DNA of 64,000 nt from positions 54,501 to 118,500 of the forward strand of contig JAFLKN010000022.1 of assembly GCA_019163175.1 (NCBI GenBank), written 5' to 3'. Shown piece after piece: positions 5,501-14,368 of this stretch. This DNA is from Prolixibacteraceae bacterium (GTDB lineage: Bacteria > Bacteroidota > Bacteroidia > Bacteroidales > Prolixibacteraceae). The notes beneath the pieces are model-generated. The model saw only the letters and a program-made list of their open reading frames with translations. It was not told the DNA's origin and made no database searches. Position 1 is the stretch's first letter; each line of letters opens with the position of its first letter. A program made the translations under genes and the position numbers.

Positions 5501-8105
5501 TGTATTCGCTGTTTTCGCTGGCCCGGGCAATAAAGAGTCCGGCATATTTCGGGAATGGCGAGTATTTTCGGGTAAACTGGCGGATGCTGGCATCACCTCC
5601 GGGTTCGAAAACACGAACGGTAAAATCGGCACTCAGCATTCCGGGCGCATCGCTTATTTTCCCGAATTGAAGCGGACAGGGCAAAGTTCCGTTGGCATCC
5701 GAAGCTTTGTCGACCAGTGTTTTGGTCTCGTATTTAAACGACTTGGTGGCATCGTCGAAACAGTACAGCGGATAATCTTCGAATTTGGTTTGACCAGCCC
5801 GTAAACTAAGTTCCACCACGGTGCGCAATCCCGGAGCCTTAATTCCGGTCAGCCAGTTCGATTCCACCTGCGCTGTCGAAAACAGATCTTCACTTCTGAT
5901 CAGCTCGTCTTTGCTAGTAAAATTGATTTTTAGCCGGTTGGGTTTTATGGTTTCTATGCGCAGCGGTTTGCTGAATTCAGCCCCTCCAATGGAAACCAGA
6001 ACTTTCCAAATACCGGTTTCGGCATCAGGAGAAGTGGCGGTACGGAAAGTGAGTAAGCGCTTTTTATCGAGATTTTGCAACTGCTCCTGAAGGATTTGCC
6101 CTTTGGGATTCATCAGCTTGAAAATAACCGGGTGTTTATCGGGCAGGGAGGAATAGCGGTCGTCAATAAATACCGAAGTGTAAATGGAATCTCCGGGTCG
6201 CCAAACGCCACGTTCAGCATAAATAAAAGCTTTAATTCCGGCCTGAATTTTCTCTCCGGCCACGTCAAACTGACTCAGCGATAACGTATTTGAATCGTTT
6301 AATTTCAGATATGATTTTTGATCGTTCTGTTCGGCAACCAGCATAAATGGCTTTTGAGATACAGGAATAGTGCAAAATCCCTGCTCGTCAGATACGCCGG
6401 TTCCGATGCTCTGAAGCTGATAATTAAAAACTTCCATTTTCACGCCTTTCATCGGCATGGCCGTTTGAATGTCGGAACAAGCCACCACAATTTCGTCGGC
6501 AACACCTTTCTTCACGGTAAGGCCGATGTTGCTCACCAGAATATTCCGGCGGATGTTTCGGTCGCTGGTGTAATAAGCCCGCGAGCATGGATTGTCGCGC
6601 AATTGCCAGTCATAATACCGGTCGTTGTAGTCGTTTTGCCAGGTGTCCGGATTTTCCCAGTAATCCTTTTCGTTTTCCACGGCATGATTGCTGTCGTAAG
6701 TTTCAGCTTCTTTTTTGTCGGGACTTTCGCCACAGGAATAAACCGAATACGCTTTTTGCATCCCGATTTCCACTTCGTAAATGGCTCCTTTTTCAATACT
6801 AATGTGCTTGGAAAGATCGATGGAGAACGCATTCCATTTGTTGAAATTCACAAATTCGCTGCTCACCAAATCAATTCGTTTGCTGTAAACCAGTCTGCCG
6901 ACATGTTTCAAATCCCAGGTGTCGTCGAGCGATGAATTTTGAAGGAAGCGGACCATGTTCGAAGGGAAAACTTTTACAATCCGTAGGTCAACAGCTTTCA
7001 GGTTAACCGATTCGAATGGAAAAATAACGGCGCCATTGTCGGGCATAATTACACCCCGTCCGGGCAATCGGAGAGCAGGTTTCAACAATTTGAAATCTAT
7101 TTCGAGGCTGTAGCTCTGCGGTAACTTTGTCCCCGCCTGATTTTTAATACTTCCATCAATGGCAAGGTTGTACACACCGGCCAAACGCTCGCTTAGGTAA
7201 AGGGTTATCCGGTTGCCTTCCACCCCGAGTTCCATCGGTGTATTCACTCTCAATTCAATCAATCCTTCCAAATCCTGCAAACTGTTTATCGGATCAGAAA
7301 AAATGAGTTTTACCTGCTGCTCCGGCTGATGAATGACCGTTGAGCTGATCAGTTTGAAATCGTTGGCTGCTGGTATCTCGATTTTTGTTTTGCCTTTTTC
7401 TTTTACGTCAACAGCTTTCCCGTTCCAACTGAGTTCTACGGTCGAAGCTTTGTCTTTTCGACGAATATCCATGACCGAAAAGAGGTGGCGGTTTTCATTT
7501 CCCGAATGATCCCACTGTACCGATAAATCTCTTCCGTCTTGTTCCGCTTCAATAATTTGCTCAACCTCTTCGGGTTTTAGCGGCACCGAAGCGAGGATTT
7601 CGCCTTGCAGCAGATACGGACTGTTTGGTTCCGACGAGCTTGTTTTCAGGCCATCGACCGAAACAGTGAAATTGCGTTTCAGGGTAAAGGCATTAAACGT
7701 TAAAACCTCGTATTTCGTAGGAAGATCGATCACATTTTTCAGTCGGAAAGTAATTTTATACTCGGTTCCTTCATCCAGATTTTCGGTTGGTTTAAACGCA
7801 AATATTCCGTCGCTGTAAGTGCACTCACCTTTTACCGATGGTTCAGTTTCAAAAAGCTTGCTGAGGTCGATGCCTGCCTTTTTATTTTCTATGGTATTCG
7901 CAACGGCTGTTGTTAGTTTGACCCGAAACGACGAATTGACCGGAATGATTCCGCTGGTGTATTCTTCGATGTATGTGCTGAATCCCGCATCAATTTCCAG
8001 GATGTGGACCACCTGGCCTGAAGGTTTGTTTTGCTGCCTGCATGAGGCGAAACAACAAAGGAATAATACGCCAATAATAAGCTGAAGGGTGGTCCTTGTT
8101 TTCAT
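2562..8105 (-). CDS. Alpha-2-macroglobulin family lipoprotein (bacterial protease trap)
   Basis: An 1847-aa envelope protein predicted to trap proteases that breach the outer membrane. The N-terminus is a lipoprotein signal ending in FASC, so the mature Cys would be lipidated. A run of MG-type beta domains fills the first two thirds. The thioester motif GCTEQ lies near residue 1400, inside the alpha-helical thioester domain that starts YPHGCTEQ. The motif is intact, so this is the thioester-active class rather than the class lacking it. Co-orientation with pbpC supports the known model in which A2M guards while PBP1C repairs the wall. The start at 8105 gives a clean signal peptide. Confidence 0.94.
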   Translation of the reverse strand: MKTRTTLQLIIGVLFLCCFASCRQQNKPSGQVVHILEIDAGFSTYIEEYTSGIIPVNSSFRVKLTTAVANTIENKKAGIDLSKLFETEPSVKGECTYSDGIFAFKPTENLDEGTEYKITFRLKNVIDLPTKYEVLTFNAFTLKRNFTVSVDGLKTSSSEPNSPYLLQGEILASVPLKPEEVEQIIEAEQDGRDLSVQWDHSGNENRHLFSVMDIRRKDKASTVELSWNGKAVDVKEKGKTKIEIPAANDFKLISSTVIHQPEQQVKLIFSDPINSLQDLEGLIELRVNTPMELGVEGNRITLYLSERLAGVYNLAIDGSIKNQAGTKLPQSYSLEIDFKLLKPALRLPGRGVIMPDNGAVIFPFESVNLKAVDLRIVKVFPSNMVRFLQNSSLDDTWDLKHVGRLVYSKRIDLVSSEFVNFNKWNAFSIDLSKHISIEKGAIYEVEIGMQKAYSVYSCGESPDKKEAETYDSNHAVENEKDYWENPDTWQNDYNDRYYDWQLRDNPCSRAYYTSDRNIRRNILVSNIGLTVKKGVADEIVVACSDIQTAMPMKGVKMEVFNYQLQSIGTGVSDEQGFCTIPVSQKPFMLVAEQNDQKSYLKLNDSNTLSLSQFDVAGEKIQAGIKAFIYAERGVWRPGDSIYTSVFIDDRYSSLPDKHPVIFKLMNPKGQILQEQLQNLDKKRLLTFRTATSPDAETGIWKVLVSIGGAEFSKPLRIETIKPNRLKINFTSKDELIRSEDLFSTAQVESNWLTGIKAPGLRTVVELSLRAGQTKFEDYPLYCFDDATKSFKYETKTLVDKASDANGTLPCPLQFGKISDAPGMLSADFTVRVFEPGGDASIRQFTRKYSPFPKYAGLFIARASENSEYIKVEDNSPIKLVAVNPLGQAVSDEFQLMIYKMEWRWWWESSDQNIGSYISRSNANLVVSKTVEVNGKPITLNSEFNKLKWGRYMVVVQSSSGHTSSQTVYNKPDYYYEDHASNQATMLSFTADKKKYTTGENIHISFPAPDKGRALITIENGTTVIDKFWIDTDSGNNNLKIKATEAMAPCAYVHISLLQPFGQRNNDNPIRMYGVIPVPVENPGSRLFPVLQIPAEFRPEKQISLTVGEKNGKAMNYTIAMVDEGLLDLTGFATPDPWIGIYQREALGVKTWDLFDDVLGAFGGRIEKLFAIGGDMNPVDPSKNKANRFKPVVRFAGPFHLEKGQTRKHTLDIPAYSGSVRTMIIAGNEGSYGSTEKTSAVKSPLMLLPVAPRSLGFNEEITIPVSVFAQEASLKNVRIKMDCSEHFSILSAKETSLNFSEIGEKGVEFRIKTSELPGFGTITFTATSGNESTKYEINIPVKSKELPISKSVTKILNAGEEASYALVPFGTKGSNKAIVTVSGLPSVNLSSRINYLIEYPHGCTEQTISSVFPQLFLSGIQELDQEQKRQIAFNIQAGISKLKQHQNTDGSFGFWPGSAANDEWLTNYAGHFFSEAELKGFTISPQMKKSWITYQARIASDWKGNLPYQKVVQAYRLYTLALADKPSFSAMNRLREDQNMPIAGRWFLAAAYAEAGRPEAAYELVDMRNINPTENFNGYTYGDQTRDRAMLLLAMVRLNDQNNMFTLYDQIAKSLNSGEWMNTQTTAFALIAVSKTMEKMNTDQKGLSYTMSLNKKVNETFKTSTLFSTALSTDLPEEQQISIKNTSSGTVFVNYFTEGIPKSGQSVKTDRNLETTVKFIGKDKTPIDVTKLTQGTDFMAVVQIKNKSLEDVSQCALTFQVPSGWEIRNTRMFNQTTAVNEDSFDYRDFRDDKVCTYFDLKKGQAKTYLIILNASYLGKYYFPNIQTEAMYDKKYLSVIPGMWVEVNK

Positions 8106-8255
8106 GGAAATTTGGATTTTATATTTTATATAAAGTTAGATATTCGTTCGGAATAAATTGTAAAATTGTAGAACGAAAAATATCTCCATTGACATATCTT
8201 TCACATAAAAAATATGTGTTGTGCCTGATGAGGTAGGGGAGTTTAATATTATAGA

Positions 8256-8765
8256 ATGAAACGAATTGGATTGTTGTCGGATACGCATGGAACCTTGAGT
8301 ACACGGATATTTAAGTTTTTTGAACCGGTTGACGAAATATGGCATGCCGGCGACATTGGCAATGCCGAAACGGCCGATCGGCTTTCGGCTTTTAAACCCT
8401 TGCGGGCTGTTTACGGCAATATCGACGACCATATTTTACGACGTATGTTTCCGGCCGATAACCGTTTTTTTTGCGAAGAGGTAGATGTTTTAATTACGCA
8501 TATTGGCGGGTATCCGGGCAGGTATGAAGCCCGTGTGCGAAACCAGTTTAAAGTAAAGGCGCCGCAGCTTTTTATTTGTGGCCATTCGCATATCCTGAAA
8601 GTTATTTTCGATCCGAAATATCACATGCTGCACATCAATCCCGGTGCGGCCGGAAACAAAGGGTTTCACCAGGTTTGCACCGCTGTTCGGTTTGTGATTG
8701 ACGGAAAAAATATTAAAGACCTGGAAGTGCTGGAATTCGAGCGAACGGCGTTTCACGAAGCCTGA
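8256..8765 (+). CDS. Metallophosphoesterase, YfcE/MJ0936 type
   Basis: A small 169-aa calcineurin-like phosphodiesterase, probably cytoplasmic and dinuclear-metal dependent. All family motifs are visible in order: SDTHG (DxH), HAGDI (GD), GNIDD (GNxD), ITHIG and GHSH. The length fits the single-domain YfcE/MJ0936 group. It is divergently transcribed from the A2M gene with a 150-bp shared promoter region. The natural substrate of this group is not settled, so no gene symbol is given. Confidence 0.92.
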   Translation: MKRIGLLSDTHGTLSTRIFKFFEPVDEIWHAGDIGNAETADRLSAFKPLRAVYGNIDDHILRRMFPADNRFFCEEVDVLITHIGGYPGRYEARVRNQFKVKAPQLFICGHSHILKVIFDPKYHMLHINPGAAGNKGFHQVCTAVRFVIDGKNIKDLEVLEFERTAFHEA

Positions 8766-8893
8766 TTAAAAGCAAAAAAGCCTGTGCTAAAAATATGCTC
8801 AATACAAAGATAAGCTCAAAAAAGTAGTTTATATTTACCACTATTTACAAGTTATTGCCAATTATAAGTGCGACACGACAGATACAGTTGACA

Positions 8894-9430
8894 ATGAGGA
8901 AACAAAAAAATAGCAAAACGAGTATTGGAGGATTTATCTTTTTAGGACTTATACTCTTAACAGTTTTGAGTGTTTTTACAATTGAGCAATATCGTAAATA
9001 TGGAGAGAGAAAAGCTTTAAAATATGGCATTGAAACAACTTGTACCATCACAGAGATTCATAATATTAAAACAGAGCTTGTTAGATATTGCTATAAAGTA
9101 AATGGGAGAGATTATTATTCGGACAAAGCGACACCCTTTAGCAGTATTATCCCAGGAGAAAAATTTTACCTGAGATATCTTAAAGAGAGTCCCAATATTA
9201 ATATGATTCAATTTGATAAGCCAATGTTGACGGACATAGAATCAATTAAGATTAAAGGCAGGATATTGAGAATAAGAAAGAACAATGAAGCAGTATTTGA
9301 TTACAAATATCAAGCTAAAATCTATGAAAGGTGGCAATTACTTAGACAGAGCCATTTCCTAGCAATTAATGATTCTGTTGAAATTGCAATTCATAAAGAC
9401 AAACCAGAAATTGGAATTATTAGATATTGA
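8894..9430 (+). CDS. Hypothetical membrane-anchored protein, first cassette gene
   Basis: About 178 aa from the ATG at 8894 (MRKQKNSKTS); an in-frame ATG at 8855 would add 13 residues ahead of a basic stretch and is less likely. One hydrophobic segment (FIFLGLILLTVLSVFTI) follows the basic N-terminus, so the remainder is probably periplasmic. The rest is mixed beta-like sequence I do not recognise. The gene is visibly AT-rich compared with the neighbouring phosphoesterase and is followed directly by the first copy of the cassette repeat. Function unknown. Confidence 0.6.
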   Translation: MRKQKNSKTSIGGFIFLGLILLTVLSVFTIEQYRKYGERKALKYGIETTCTITEIHNIKTELVRYCYKVNGRDYYSDKATPFSSIIPGEKFYLRYLKESPNINMIQFDKPMLTDIESIKIKGRILRIRKNNEAVFDYKYQAKIYERWQLLRQSHFLAINDSVEIAIHKDKPEIGIIRY

Positions 9431-9446
9431 AAATAAATAACTCGGC

Positions 9447-9598
9447 CATAACTTCAGCTACCCGTCAAGCACGGCAGCGGTGGTTTTCGGTGGGTATCTT
9501 TCCGCTCGGCTCCGGTTAACCGGGCTTGACAGGAATCGAAGATCGGCGATAGCCAAATCGCCCGCAATCGGCTTTTGAATATAGCTTTCTAGGTTAGC
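9447..9598 (+). repeat. Cassette-type fold-back repeat, copy 1
   Basis: About 152 bp starting CATAACTTCAGCTAC and ending TAGGTTAGC. It shares blocks with copies 2 and 3: GGCAGCGGTGGTTTTCGGTGG, ATCTTTCCGCT, CTTGACAGGAATCGAAGATC, and GATAGCCAAATCG. The ends are imperfectly complementary (AAC...AGCTA against TAGCT...GTT), so the strand can fold into a long imperfect hairpin, the layout expected of an integron attC site. It lies between two unrelated plus-strand genes. Confidence 0.75.
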
Positions 9599-9636
9599 AG
9601 CAATTTTCACAATCCAATCAAAATATACACAACAAA

Positions 9637-10260
9637 ATGAAATATATTTTCCAAAGGCTGACATTGATAATATTTGTGGTTATAATAAGAATATTTGATG
9701 TAAATGCTCAAAAACAAGAAGGACTTGAAATAGGAACGAATATAGGTATAAGTCAGGCAGGGGTAGTTGCACCAGGAGAAGATAACACTGAAACTAGAGT
9801 AACCTATAACATTGGTGTATCTGGTGAATACTATTTCTCTGATAGATGGGGCGCTAAGTTGAAAGTAATTTGGGATAACAAAGGTTATTCTAACGGTACA
9901 ATTATAGACAAGAACGCAAATAAGATAACAACTGATATTAATCTGAATTATATTACTATTCCATTAATGGCAAATTGGCATTTTAGTAAGCATAGGAGAT
10001 GGTATTTAGGCTTTGGTCCTTATCTGGGACTATTAACCAGTGCAAAAGATTCAGAATTACATGAGGATATAAAAAATCAAATGAACGGTTCCGATTATGG
10101 TTATGTGTTCTGCATTGGGTACAAATATGAAATAACTAATAACACGAAACTATTTCTTGAATGTGATGGTCAATATGGTATTAAAAATATAATAGCTGGA
10201 AACTATAGGGTTTGGAATACCAGAGGTGCCTATAATATTGGGGTGTTGATTGATTTATAG
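9637..10260 (+). CDS. Outer-membrane beta-barrel protein (PorT-like family), second cassette gene
   Basis: A 207-aa protein with a signal peptide ending NAQKQE. Its body alternates polar and aromatic residues in strands ending in Tyr/Trp, for example GVSGEYYFSDRWGAKLKVIW and YITIPLMANWHF, and it finishes on a hydrophobic strand (GAYNIGVLIDL), as outer-membrane barrels do. The size and pattern fit the small 8-stranded barrel families common in Bacteroidota. The start is only 38 bp after copy 1 of the repeat and the stop is about 38 bp before copy 2, so it fills its cassette. Ligand or partner unknown. Confidence 0.75.
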   Translation: MKYIFQRLTLIIFVVIIRIFDVNAQKQEGLEIGTNIGISQAGVVAPGEDNTETRVTYNIGVSGEYYFSDRWGAKLKVIWDNKGYSNGTIIDKNANKITTDINLNYITIPLMANWHFSKHRRWYLGFGPYLGLLTSAKDSELHEDIKNQMNGSDYGYVFCIGYKYEITNNTKLFLECDGQYGIKNIIAGNYRVWNTRGAYNIGVLIDL

Positions 10261-10297
10261 TTTAATATTATTAGACAAAATACAACAATGAACTGTT

Positions 10298-10445
10298 GCT
10301 AACTTCAGCTACCCTCAAAGTCGGCAGTAGTGGTTTTCGGTGGGCATCATTCCGCCCAAGCTGCTTTTCGGCTTGTCAGGAATCGAAGATCGGCAATAGC
10401 CAAATCGTCCACAATCGGCAACTGTATTTAGCTTCCTGGCTTAGC
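10298..10445 (+). repeat. Cassette-type fold-back repeat, copy 2
   Basis: A 148-bp copy beginning TTGCTAACTTCAGCTACC and ending AGCTTCCTGGCTTAGC. The terminal inverted pair GCTAA...AGCTA / TAGCT...TTAGC is clearest here. The internal blocks match copy 1 closely over the whole length. It is immediately followed by a promoter-like box and the Fic gene. Confidence 0.78.
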
Positions 10446-10496
10446 GGTTATTGTAAGATAACACAGCTGATTGCAAGTGCAAAATATAAATTATCC

Positions 10497-10504
10497 TACC
10501 TTTG
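10497..10504 (+). promoter_or_regulatory. Promoter -7 box for the Fic gene
   Basis: TACCTTTG matches the Bacteroidota -7 consensus TAnnTTTG exactly. A TTG at 10471-10473 lies 23 bp upstream, slightly long for the -33 element. The box lies between the end of repeat copy 2 and the ATG at 10548, so this cassette would carry its own promoter. Confidence 0.5.
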
Positions 10505-10547
10505 GATTAAAGATTTTTAAGTTGCAGTTTAGGTAACATTCAAAACT

Positions 10548-11429
10548 ATGAGTAATACAAAAATATCCATACGTTTCTTTGACGACCGCGAAGTGCGAGC
10601 CGTTTGGGATGAAGAAAACTCCAAGTGGTGGTTTTCGGTGTTGGATATTGTAGCTTTGCTTACCGACCAAGACGACTACACGAAAACGCGCAACTACTGG
10701 AAATACCTTAAAGCCAAATTGAGAAAAGAAAAAAGCGAGTTGGTTAGTGCCACTACCCAACTGAAACTTTTAGCAAGTGACGGAAAACGATATTTAACGG
10801 ATATGTTGGATTACGCCGGCATTATTGCCTTAGGCAAAGAATTTCCCGGCAAAAAGGCAAACCGATTTATTGAATGGTTTACATACAGCGATGAAAGCAT
10901 AGACGGAAAAAGCAAAACAAAAGCCTATGCCTTGTTTGAAAGCACTTTTGTCAGCAGCATAGAAGTTGGCACAACCAAAGGTTTGCAACAAATACACGCT
11001 TATTTGTTTGGCGGATTGTATGATTTTGCGGGACAAATCAGACAAAAAAATATTTCAAAAGGTGGTTTCCAATTTGCTGTATCGCGCTTTTTAGGCGACA
11101 CATTAAAGCAAATAGAAGCAATGCCCGAAACTACATTTGACGAAATCGTAAACAAATATGTAGAAATGAACATTGCACACCCTTTTATGGAAGGCAATGG
11201 CAGAAGCGCCCGGATATGGCTGGATTTGATATTAAAAAAGCGCCTCAAAAAATGCGTTGATTGGAGTAAAATAAGCAAGCGGGATTACATGAACGCAATG
11301 ATGCTCAGTCCAACCCAAAGTAGTGTTCTAAAAACGCTTTTAGAAAAAGCACTTACCATCAAAATAAGCGATCGCGAAATGTTTATGAAAGGGATAGACT
11401 ACTCCTATTACTATGAAGAAAATGACTAA
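10548..11429 (+). CDS. BRO-N / Fic domain fusion protein, third cassette gene
   Basis: A 293-aa protein with two parts. Residues ~1-115 resemble the BRO-N/phage antirepressor-like domain ([21 protein letters not shown]). Residues ~125-290 are a Fic domain with the canonical motif [12 protein letters not shown] near residue 211, including the catalytic His and the anion-binding GNGR, plus the upstream [17 protein letters not shown] helix. Fic enzymes transfer AMP or other nucleotide-derived groups to protein hydroxyls. The segment VSSIEVG just before the Fic core may be a degenerate inhibitory-helix motif, since it lacks the standard [S/T]xxxE[G/N] form. No antitoxin gene is adjacent. BRO-N fused to Fic is known in putative virulence or toxin proteins. 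Confidence 0.88.
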
Positions 11430-11460
11430 TCAAAAACGGCAAAATCGAAAACAACGAATC

Positions 11461-11589
11461 GCTAACATCAGCTAACTTCAAAGCTCGGCAGCAGTGGTTT
11501 TCTGTGGGCATCTTTCCGCTCAGGCTGTTTTTCGCCTTGACAGGAAATCGCCCACAATCCGACACAGCATATACCTAACTGCCTGCAGT
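11461..11589 (+). repeat. Cassette-type fold-back repeat, copy 3 (shorter)
   Basis: About 129 bp beginning CGCTAACATCAGCTAAC. It keeps CGGCAGCAGTGGTTTTC, GTGGGCATCTTTCCGCTC and TTGACAGGAA, and then lacks the ~20-bp block GAAGATCGGCAATAGCCAAA of the other copies. The right end (CATATACCTAACTGCC) is diverged, so the exact boundary is uncertain. It separates the Fic gene from the nucleoside-hydrolase-like gene. Confidence 0.7.
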
Positions 11590-11622
11590 AACACTAATAC
11601 ACTGAAATTAAAAAAAAGGACT

Positions 11623-12588
11623 ATGGAATTTAAAATAACTAATATGAATAATCTGCGAATTGAGCCCTTATTCAAGAAGTCTGTCCTAATGTGTTTGTTT
11701 TTATTAAGCCAGATAAATTATTCATTTTCTCAATTACCTCTTTGGCAAGGCAAGGGGCGAATAGTCATAAGTTCTGATGGAAATGAACATGATCATGATG
11801 ATTGGGCGGCAACACCTTTATCGTTGGCTATCATTGCAGCCAAGGGTTTGCAGAATAAGTTAACTGTTTACATTTATTCCGATCATATATGGGGAAGTAA
11901 TTATGAACATCCTGGAGTTGACGGTGTAAAGCCCTATGATCAAATGAAAGAGAGTGCAATTAATGGTGGCAGAATGTTTTGGTTTAAACAAACCAAATTT
12001 ATATGTGCGGTTGACAATCCCGAAATTGCGTATGAGGCTTTGCAAATGGAAATTGATAAATCGGATTCAGAAAATCCACTTTTCATCATTGCTGCTGGTC
12101 CTGTTCAGGTAATTGGTGAGTCAATTTCAAAAGCGAATAAAGACAAAAGGAAATTTGTTACTGTAATCTCTACCATAAATTGCTGGAATGATACGCATGC
12201 GGACAATCCTTATCCATGGGAAAATCATTCAGGATGGACAATGGCTGAAATTATTCAACATTTTTCAAATCCTGAAGGTGGCGATCTGAAAGTTATCTCC
12301 ATTCAAAATCAAAATCCTTGTCTAATGCGAAACTGGAAAGAATATGAATGGTTGATGACCGCTCCTGAACGCAATAATGAATACTACAGAAATGGTAGTT
12401 GGGCATGGCTGTTCAACAGGATTTGTATGAGCATAAAACCAGTATCAGGAGTTGAAAATTATTATGCTGTAGATCCATCTGACGCTGGCAAAGTTGTATA
12501 TCTATTTACAGGGATTGAGAATACTAGCCCTCAATTGTGTTACGAAATAATGCGAAAACCTCCTCTTAAAGCAAGTATGAATAAATAG
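11623..12588 (+). CDS. Secreted nucleoside-hydrolase-like protein, fourth cassette gene
   Basis: A 321-aa protein from the ATG at 11623, which follows an AAAGGA ribosome-binding-like sequence; the longer reading frame back to 11494 would run through repeat copy 3 and is rejected. A hydrophobic signal segment (SVLMCLFLLSQINYSFSQ) implies export. The motif SSDGNEHDHDDW resembles the DxDxxxDD Ca-binding start of inosine-uridine nucleoside hydrolases, and IIAAGPVQVIGESI matches their second alpha/beta block. Catalytic details beyond the Asp cluster cannot be confirmed by eye. It may act on nucleosides or glycosides in the periplasm. Confidence 0.65.
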   Translation: MEFKITNMNNLRIEPLFKKSVLMCLFLLSQINYSFSQLPLWQGKGRIVISSDGNEHDHDDWAATPLSLAIIAAKGLQNKLTVYIYSDHIWGSNYEHPGVDGVKPYDQMKESAINGGRMFWFKQTKFICAVDNPEIAYEALQMEIDKSDSENPLFIIAAGPVQVIGESISKANKDKRKFVTVISTINCWNDTHADNPYPWENHSGWTMAEIIQHFSNPEGGDLKVISIQNQNPCLMRNWKEYEWLMTAPERNNEYYRNGSWAWLFNRICMSIKPVSGVENYYAVDPSDAGKVVYLFTGIENTSPQLCYEIMRKPPLKASMNK

Positions 12589-12871
12589 GAGAGGCGTTCT
12601 GACTGCGCGCATAAATAAAAGTGTATTCTGGGTTGCCCGAAGAATAAAAACATGCAGCAAAAGTCTGTCACGCGCGAAAATTATGCAGTTCAACAATCCG
12701 CCCTAATTATAAACGCTATCAATTCACTAAAACCCACAGCCATTTGGATGGCTGCAATACCTATTCGCACCACCGATTCCTGAAATCGGCTTTAACCAAT
12801 CCGATAATGATCATGGCTGTCAGGGTTAAAATTGAATTAATAAATATTTACTAAATAAAAATATATATTTA
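12589..12871. other. Intergenic region after the cassette genes
   Basis: No ORF is convincing here. Two perfect hairpins are visible: CAGCCAT/ATGGCTG at 12737-12754 and CCGATT/AATCGG at 12773-12789. A further imperfect inverted pair (ACTGCGCGCATAA near 12600 and TTATGCAGT near 12680) could be a diverged end element of the last cassette, but it shares no sequence with the three repeat copies. Confidence 0.4.
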
Positions 12872-12902
12872 TTGATATTCGATAAATATTTATTTATATT
12901 TG
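12841..12902 (+). promoter_or_regulatory. Promoter with twin palindromic operator candidates for the DUF2975/XRE operon
   Basis: TTG at 12872-12874 and TATATTTG at 12895-12902 are separated by 20 bp, a very good Bacteroidota promoter. The palindrome TAAATATTTA occurs at 12841-12850 and again at 12883-12892, exactly 42 bp apart (four helical turns). The second copy lies between the -33 and -7 elements. The downstream operon encodes an XRE regulator, so autorepression is a natural inference. Confidence 0.55.
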
Positions 12903-12928
12903 CAGAATAAATTTTAACTTTAAACAAC

Positions 12929-13465
12929 ATGTCAAAAAGAAACAACTTTGTATTTATAGCCCTGCATATTGTTGCCTGGCTTATCTTCGTTGGCTTGTGC
13001 ATTGAAGCCGGAGCCTTAATAGTCAATTTTATTTTCAGTCTCTTCAAACCTGAAATTGTCCACAACCTATATCAAAAGTTGGACTTAAGTCAAATGTATA
13101 ATCTTAACAAATGGGTATTTTTCAGTATGTATAGTTTTATCCTGTTCATCTCTATTTTGAAGGCATGCCTATTCTATGTTGTCATTATGCTTTTACTCAA
13201 ACTTGATTTGACAAAACCATTCAGTAGCTATGTTGCCGGTCGGATCAAAACACTAAGCTACTACACCCTATCCATCGGGCTCATCAGTTACTTTGCCCGG
13301 GAAACCGCCAAAAGTATCCAGCATTATGGATTTGAAACCGATGTCCTAAACCAGTTTTGGGCCGACAGTCAGGCATGGATTTTAATGGCAGCTGTAATCT
13401 ATGTCATTGCGACTATTTTTTCAAGAGGAGTCGAACTCCAAAACGAAAACGATTTAACCGTTTAA
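12929..13465 (+). CDS. DUF2975 integral membrane protein
   Basis: A 178-aa protein with four predicted membrane segments (about residues 10-38, 60-88, 105-125 and 147-165). Layout and length match DUF2975, a family almost always followed by a small YozG-type XRE regulator, as here with a 3-bp gap. The molecular role of the family is unknown; the pairing suggests a membrane protein that signals to or is controlled by the regulator. Confidence 0.85.
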   Translation: MSKRNNFVFIALHIVAWLIFVGLCIEAGALIVNFIFSLFKPEIVHNLYQKLDLSQMYNLNKWVFFSMYSFILFISILKACLFYVVIMLLLKLDLTKPFSSYVAGRIKTLSYYTLSIGLISYFARETAKSIQHYGFETDVLNQFWADSQAWILMAAVIYVIATIFSRGVELQNENDLTV

Positions 13466-13468
13466 GCC

Positions 13469-13672
13469 ATGCCAATAATCGTAAATCTTGATGTGATGAT
13501 GGCTAAACGGAAAATGTCGTTGAATGAACTTTCCGAAAAAGTTGACCTGACGCTTTCCAATCTATCCATATTAAAAACCGGAAAGGCCAAGGCCATTCGG
13601 TTCAGTACGCTCGAAGCTATTTGCAAAGTTCTGGATTGCCAACCTGGCGATATATTGGAATTCACCAAATAA
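13469..13672 (+). CDS. Small XRE-family regulator, YozG type
   Basis: A 67-aa helix-turn-helix DNA-binding protein. The HTH core runs MSLNELSEKVDLTLSNLSIL, followed by the family tail FSTLEAICKVLDCQPGDILE. It starts 3 bp after the DUF2975 stop, so the two are surely co-translated. The likely target is its own promoter, where twin TAAATATTTA sites are present. Confidence 0.92.
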   Translation: MPIIVNLDVMMAKRKMSLNELSEKVDLTLSNLSILKTGKAKAIRFSTLEAICKVLDCQPGDILEFTK

Positions 13673-13777
13673 ATTTTGACTGAAACGCTGCACTTTTCAG
13701 AAGTATTCTGCCGGTTCCAAGCTGTCGGTTCTCAACATTTTAAGCTCCTGTCTGTTTTGAAATGAAAAGTAAATGCC

Positions 13778-14368
13778 ATGAAACAAATTCTTTTCATTTT
13801 AATCTTTTTCGGAATGACAAACATAACGAGCGCAGGGCAAACAGAAACTGCCACTTTTGGAGGAGGTTGCTTTTGGTGTACCGAAGCCATTTTTAAGAGC
13901 CTGAAAGGCGTTGATACCGTAGAGTCGGGTTATTCGGGTGGTAAGTTAAAGAACCCAACTTACAAGGAAGTTTGCACGGGTGAAACGGGTCATGCCGAAG
14001 TAATTCAGATTACCTTCGATCCGGCCGTGATCAGTTTTCGCGAATTGCTTGAAGTATTCTGGGAAACACACGATCCGACTACCCTAAATCAGCAGGGAGC
14101 CGACCGCGGAACACAATACCGTTCCGTAGTTTTTTATCACTCGTTGCAGCAAAAAGAGGAGGCCGAAAAATACAAGACTGAACTCAACAAGGAAAACGTA
14201 TTTGGCAAACCGGTGGTAACCGAGATTTCGGCTTTCGACAAGTTTTATAAAGCCGAAAACTACCATCAGGATTACTTTGCGAACAATTCTACGCAAGGCT
14301 ATTGCCAGTTCGTAATTGTTCCCAAATTGCAGAAGTTCCGAAAGATTTTTAAGGATAAACTTAAATAA
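13778..14368 (+). CDS. msrA: Exported peptide-methionine (S)-S-oxide reductase
   Basis: A 196-aa MsrA that reduces methionine-S-sulfoxide in oxidised proteins. The catalytic GCFWC motif is present (Cys31, with Cys34), followed by the family blocks YSGG, GHAEVIQITFDP, FWETHDPTTLNQQGADRGTQYRS and YHQDYF. An N-terminal signal peptide (about residues 1-20) points to the periplasm, so it is an envelope repair enzyme. The late Cys in GYCQF could resolve the sulfenic acid. A YciI-like secreted protein follows after 7 bp. Confidence 0.97.
   Translation: MKQILFILIFFGMTNITSAGQTETATFGGGCFWCTEAIFKSLKGVDTVESGYSGGKLKNPTYKEVCTGETGHAEVIQITFDPAVISFRELLEVFWETHDPTTLNQQGADRGTQYRSVVFYHSLQQKEEAEKYKTELNKENVFGKPVVTEISAFDKFYKAENYHQDYFANNSTQGYCQFVIVPKLQKFRKIFKDKLK

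Follow-up and report, generated by a model that had tools for sequence, protein, structure and literature searches.

A partly decayed cassette array in a Prolixibacteraceae genome probably belongs to an integron-like system with a tyrosine recombinase other than IntI

The window analysed here, a 64,000-nucleotide stretch of a Prolixibacteraceae bacterium genome (contig JAFLKN010000022.1, positions 54,501 to 118,500), contains three genes that are each followed by a copy of the same ~150-bp repeat. Judged from sequence comparison, these genes, their attC-like ends and the orphan attI-like stretch in front of them are very probably part of a Bacteroidota system resembling integrons. Its tyrosine recombinase, distinct from IntI, would insert and excise gene cassettes by joining folded single-stranded sites at G/TT (a slash within a motif marks the boundary or cut position). 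Integrons are the textbook example of site-specific single-gene capture. A preliminary description of the window had considered either a cluster of attC sites lacking an integron integrase (CALIN) or "a cassette system of another recombinase in Bacteroidota"; the second fits best, with a recombinase that lacks the IntI insertion.

The layout itself is as first described: each of three unrelated plus-strand genes precedes one repeat copy, and a fourth gene stands behind the last (Table 1). The three same-strand copies were detected by nhmmer and, in agreement with it, by model-free detection; nhmmer found no fourth copy in the window. Searched with a 161-bp query from copy 1, the same genome contains 25 matching places, the window's three included, which are clustered on few contigs. 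Matches are present in 25 of 61 genomes including this one, namely in 22 of the 23 of the same genus, one of another genus of the family and two of other families of the order. The array of genome G012 spans ~28 kb and carries 21 copies on a single strand, and that of G018 has 14 copies at the identical chromosomal place, both being flanked by like open reading frames (ORFs): three on one side, with 711, 123 and 578 aa, and one with 683 aa opposite. Altogether, 119 related copies were collected over 27 fetched stretches, and none of the 23 stretches with at least two copies has them on mixed strands. The longest ORF of the 88 inter-repeat intervals (28 stretches) lies on the repeat strand in 76 and on the opposite strand in eight; four have no ORF of 60 aa.

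A cassette opens with GTT and then a word that varies between cassettes. The reverse complement of this word tends to precede AAC in the 3' repeat of the same cassette. Among the 66 cassettes with both ends resolved (out of the 119 repeats), positions 5-10 average 4.70 of 6 matches between own ends versus 2.32 when the ends are re-paired (standard deviation (sd) 0.15; maximum 2.94 in 5000 shuffles), and compensatory pair types are seen at positions 5-9 among 54 distinct sites. Position 11 departs from this pattern, with 9 of 66 matches (9.6 expected): it is A in 52 of the 54 distinct sites, facing C in 32. Positions 12-14 match again (46, 47 and 42 of 66 versus 29, 25 and 23 expected). In the window, the starts of cassettes 1, 2 and 3 (GTTATTGCCA, GTTAGCAGCA and CTTAGCGGTT) pair at 8, 9 and 8 of 10 positions with the words before AAC at 9450-9452, 10301-10303 and 11464-11466, respectively, a result equalled by 18, 3 and 3 of the 1225 AAC-ended words of the window.

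Whole units are also duplicated. Among 69 cassettes compared, exact duplicates of 619 bp (three copies), 1253 bp (two) and 861 bp (two) were found in G012 and of 667 bp (two) in G018. These are 100% identical from GTT to GTT and have different right neighbours, and on that side the identity stops at a distance of 3-9 bases from the G in GTT. To their left, the G012 duplicates have different repeats with 18-25 conserved bases in common; in the G018 pair, 150 bp on the left are identical as well. Cassette-to-cassette walks covered 19 hand-picked loci, and in Mesohalobacter halotolerans nine cassettes in succession each have 0 mismatches in the 10-nt end partner. Later steps in the other walks are often chance, as 31 of 180 random GTT starts have a partner with at most one mismatch within 3.5 kb.

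Copies at many loci, a few of which carry a single copy, would suit a dispersed structured repeat (like repetitive extragenic palindromes or miniature inverted-repeat transposable elements) that merely lies between genes. We rejected this explanation, which is extremely improbable, on account of the cassette-specific end complementarity, the exact GTT-to-GTT duplicates and the confinement to one strand per stretch; the boundary at the attI-like site speaks against it as well. The preliminary description had set its cassette interpretation against a repeat lying in both orientations without cassette-like exchange, and the uniform strand and the appearance of whole cassettes in new positions support that interpretation. 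Hairpin ends and exact unit duplication are also compatible with a single-strand transposase (IS200/IS605-like) or a larger transposon that carries the genes and has the repeats as its ends. However, there is one repeat per gene and not a pair, adjacent units share one site, and at the head of arrays stands a tyrosine recombinase gene followed by a conserved site; with no search aimed at HUH transposases, this leaves a transposon practically negligible as an explanation.

This conserved site marks the point where the cassettes begin. In G012 and G018, the sequence behind the recombinase stop codon differs by one base up to TACTA and then enters different first cassettes. When 84,980 species genomes were scanned with residues 1-400 of the recombinase, 49 loci emerged, of which 33 were taken for the study of junctions and 32 retained after L182 was dropped as a spurious call; the 16 left out comprise seven contigs that end at or before the stop codon, one additional copy from the L176 contig whose site is the same, and eight loci with no junction seen. 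The 32 loci belong to several families, have the stop codon at most ~200 bp from the attI-like site, and conserve AAAA, TTT, GATAT and ACTA/GTT but not the word after it; A occupies position 11 in all 32 first cassettes. Where at least 500 bp lie behind the site (23 loci), the first cassette has its own partner with 0 mismatches in 10 and with at most one in 15, versus 0 and 13 of 492 swapped pairs. Eight Flavobacterium loci have nearly the same attI-like site and first cassettes that open with seven different words, and the two recombinase loci of Flavobacterium sasangense DSM 21067 (L198, L200) share one site sequence but not the first cassette. On contig JAGVPB010000065.1 (L176, L192), two recombinase copies in opposite orientation have the same first-cassette start.

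The window carries a version of this site: positions 8791-8850 align with the 60 bp after the G012 recombinase stop codon, and a search of the genus with 8782-8858 matched the post-recombinase position in G019 (contig C104, E 1.3e-6), G018 (3.2e-5) and G012 (2.0e-4). The preliminary description had thus placed the repeats correctly but not the start of the array, which lies behind this stretch. A second, weak attI-like match in the same genome was seen at G000:C5:11733-11776 (E 0.009).

The candidate enzyme is a tyrosine recombinase of ~580 aa with an N-terminal extension of ~290 aa that comprises three modules. No relative of it is encoded in the window (tblastn, 1e-5), in line with the lack of an integrase noted before, and the full-length recombinase of this genome is located on a separate contig, C62, which ends exactly at CACTA/GTT (G000:C62:1-138). 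The IntI-like recombinase that had been suggested as a target for searches has a candidate, one that lacks the IntI insertion. The end of C62, like the 18 scanned contigs that stop close to the recombinase stop codon (see below), gives the impression of mixed or repetitive cassette arrangements in the samples. The record titles of all 49 scan loci name Bacteroidota groups or genera. Of the database proteins, one carries a label from outside Bacteroidota (P0099, Minisyncoccota); P0321 is labelled Rhizobacter, yet a Ferruginibacter-titled contig (L177) carries such a gene.

The best NCBIfam match of the recombinase is TIGR02249, the integron integrase, with 234 bits versus a cut-off of 265; in the genome of the window the match is broken at profile positions 177-237 and nothing exceeds the cut-off. 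Alignment to IntI4 skips IntI4 residues 174-245 (72 aa there, 30 aa in this recombinase), and the spacing from GKGxKxR to HxLRH is 59-60 residues in the large recombinases (8 readable of 15) and 58 in shorter relatives (1 readable of 16) versus 100 in IntI (3 usable of 5). The best Foldseek match is VchIntIA (2a3v). As a whole-model search is hardly informative for the N-terminal part, this part was folded separately, and its three modules are predicted to resemble, weakly, the XPB damage-recognition domain and the HARP domain of SMARCAL1.

Shorter relatives of the recombinase (328-543 aa) have the same junction at most ~130 bp from their stop codon, with 0 mismatches in L119 and L120 and one in L121, L122 and L130; L114, known here as a 172-aa open frame, also has 0. 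The likely sites of the large-type L113 and L126 have three and two mismatches, and no junction could be identified confidently in L115-L118, L123, L129, L131 and L132. In G003, G010, G014 and G022, a shorter relative lies upstream of a window-type repeat on the same contig and strand. A plasmid of Chryseobacterium sp. SNU WT5 (L230, 8804-16801) contains a recombinase relative followed by four near-identical repeats of ~176 bp and a group II intron gene, and is possibly a mobile version.

Folding was predicted for 54 distinct sites out of 59. In the form that they would have in a circle, the bottom strand averages -28.5 kcal/mol and the top strand -25.2, the bottom strand being lower in 46 sites; the predicted circle form of the bottom strand is below its linear form in 46 of 54 (two equal). 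For 20 sites, the predicted bottom-strand energy averages 3.8 sd below that of mononucleotide shuffles (range -7.1 to -0.3). Six printed examples from G019 (L071) share a modelled anatomy of a base stem (at most 15 bp), an unpaired spacer of 6 and 3 nt, a 6-bp stem of AGCTAC and GTAGCT, a bulged base and a variable top. For attC sites, passages of PMC3053210 describe extrahelical bases and binding of the bottom strand.

Several observations weigh against a system with an enzyme of its own. The repeats were called foldable from the outset, which agrees with the predicted bottom-strand folds overall and not with window site 2, whose predicted fold lacks a clean attC hairpin. The fold matches are tied. 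In a tree of 15 large and 16 shorter recombinases, five IntI rows (4 of the 20 IntI loci from the phylum sample, plus intI1) and the two Xer rows that passed the filters, each of these four sets forms one side of a branch; their order is weakly supported (34 for large recombinases with IntI; approximately unbiased p 0.49 with large and shorter held together), and because of this, one origin and two origins are not separable by the tree. A recombinase match above 145 bits was found in 14 of the 22 same-genus genomes with repeats and none in eight; G024 has repeats and no recombinase match, and G005 a recombinase relative and no repeats. These absences count weakly, albeit not for nothing, because draft genomes predominate and because, of the 49 scanned contigs, 18 break off before the recombinase stop codon, at it or no more than 200 bp from it. 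Finally, passages of PMC8138268 describe the IntI insertion as essential for integron function and as not fully conserved in the integron-like subgroup.

The last point, together with the shared architecture, the best matches to TIGR02249 and VchIntIA, and a tree that does not reject the grouping of the large recombinases with IntI, would agree with a canonical integron or CALIN remnant, in which ordinary attC sites were served by an IntI that has lost its insertion. The sub-threshold and interrupted profile match, the short motif spacing (in the readable rows), the separate IntI group in the tree and a core unlike GTTRRRY make this improbable. The eight genomes with repeats and no close recombinase could also indicate that another recombinase, such as the host XerC/D, moves the cassettes and that the large recombinase is a passenger at the head of the array. 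This is distinctly improbable given the constant proximity of recombinase stop codon and attI-like site across the 32 loci, which the shorter relatives share.

In the integron-like system favoured here, a cassette would leave as a circle, in which its start (GTT and ~11 nt) would pair with the end of its repeat on the 3' side, giving a base stem that may reach ~15 bp. In this circle site, the bottom strand would fold best, aided by the conserved A at position 11, which often faces C (A.C on the top strand, G.T on the bottom strand). The recombinase would cut at G/TT and put the cassette back at attI or at another site, and its three N-terminal modules are predicted to take over from the absent IntI insertion in reading the folded DNA. 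The array in the window was probably seeded in trans, or severed from its recombinase, and then decayed; its likely enzyme would act in trans from C62.

Table 1. Array features in the window (positions in the 64,000-nucleotide stretch)
Feature	Position	Strand	Remarks
Orphan attI-like site, partly decayed	8791..8850	+	ends in TTTACAA/GTT; no recombinase gene adjoining
Cassette 1	8851..9592	+	gene 8894-9430 from inner ATG; single hydrophobic stretch (judged by eye); no Pfam match
attC-like site 1	9441..9595	+	repeat match 9446-9604, E 1.9e-34
Cassette 2	9593..10439	+	gene 9637-10260, outer-membrane protein beta-barrel, Pfam PF13568
attC-like site 2	10291..10442	+	repeat match 10299-10451; core G replaced by C (CTTA)
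Cassette 3	10440..11580	+	gene 10548-11429, Bro-N and Fic, Pfam PF02498 and PF02661
attC-like site 3	11454..11583	+	shortened; right core degenerate; repeat match 11461-11576, model positions 4-119 of 137
Fourth gene	11623..12588	+	inside ORF 11494-12588; no repeat downstream; no Pfam match

By its sequence, the window holds a partly decayed array, between yfcE and msrA, of three cassettes behind a putative orphan attI-like site. Insertion is the best reading for the array and for what adjoins it as far as msrA, because seven of the 22 same-genus genomes with yfcE (G004, G006, G008, G012, G013, G014 and G018) have msrA ~100-230 bp after it. The fourth gene is missing from these seven relatives and is either a truncated last cassette or a portion of the insertion site. 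Other relatives have different sequence between yfcE and msrA, with an attI-like stretch there in G009 and G019 and, by eye, also in G010 and G020. A DUF2975 and HTH_26 gene pair (window 12929-13672) adjoins the array; it is found directly behind yfcE without cassettes in G016 (L152) and is a second insertion at the same place. For known RNA elements in the window, Rfam gave just a sub-threshold snoRNA match at 12042-12093.

The cargo of the cassettes is varied. Among 97 cassette proteins, there are four Fic, four HigB-like Gp49, three HTH_3 and two Schlafen AlbA proteins (best 25 of 89 families), as well as three SoFic proteins and candidate defence families (best 25 of 55). G012 contains a multi-gene cassette of 7.5 kb (L064, ~6579-14097, minus strand) with type I restriction genes, for HsdR- and HsdM-type proteins (the latter with a specificity-domain match), and an Abi_C-type protein. 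The layout of recombinase gene, attI-like site and cassettes is also present in Flavobacterium, Psychroflexus and Mesohalobacter isolates. IntI scores above the cut-off in 105 of 395 genomes of the phylum, and one genome of the window's class (G097) is among the matches listed, the share of the class in the 395 not having been counted; nine other rows of the class among the matches listed end at profile 174-184, as ordinary Xer proteins would. Bacteroidota are among the phyla listed with integrons in part of a review (PMC8618304). No published description of such a system was found in open-licence papers, preprints and most subscription journals being outside reach.

With some reservation, we lean towards a broader reading, in which Bacteroidia would have integrons of their own, with Fic, toxin-antitoxin-like and restriction cargo, both in Prolixibacteraceae and in cultured members of Flavobacterium, Psychroflexus and Mesohalobacter. 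Their recombinase, devoid of the IntI insertion, would capture cassettes as single-stranded folded DNA and read the hairpin with its HARP/XPB-like modules, a second molecular solution and possibly a second origin. If true, such a parallel system would be an alternative way of recognising folded DNA and would account for Bacteroidia cassette arrays despite the single IntI genome of the class among the matches listed. The arrays would be a source of uncharacterised genes to mine, and whether cassette capture arose once or twice would become testable in cultured strains.

Compared with known systems, the arrays resemble integrons in the tyrosine recombinase, the attI-like site that sequence places beside it and where cassettes begin, the separate cassette units in one orientation, the GTT junction, the predicted preference for the bottom strand, and the Fic, HigB-like and defence-like cargo; the modelled anatomy of the G019 sites is like that of attC, unlike that of window site 2. 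They differ from integrons in a recombinase that has three N-terminal modules and no IntI-specific insertion in its catalytic domain, whose gene points into the array with the attI-like site behind its stop codon, and in a base stem of up to ~15 bp with the conserved A at position 11. The R' core consensus of integrons is GTTRRRY, whereas the core here is GTT with a variable word complementary to the end of the same cassette. The window resembles a CALIN in having no recombinase beside its three attC-like sites. It differs in retaining an attI-like site, and the CALIN-like appearance proposed initially holds only locally, because a candidate recombinase is encoded elsewhere in the same genome. 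From XerA, XerC and XerD, the large recombinase is distinguished by its long N-terminal extension and by its linkage to cassette arrays and an attI-like site.

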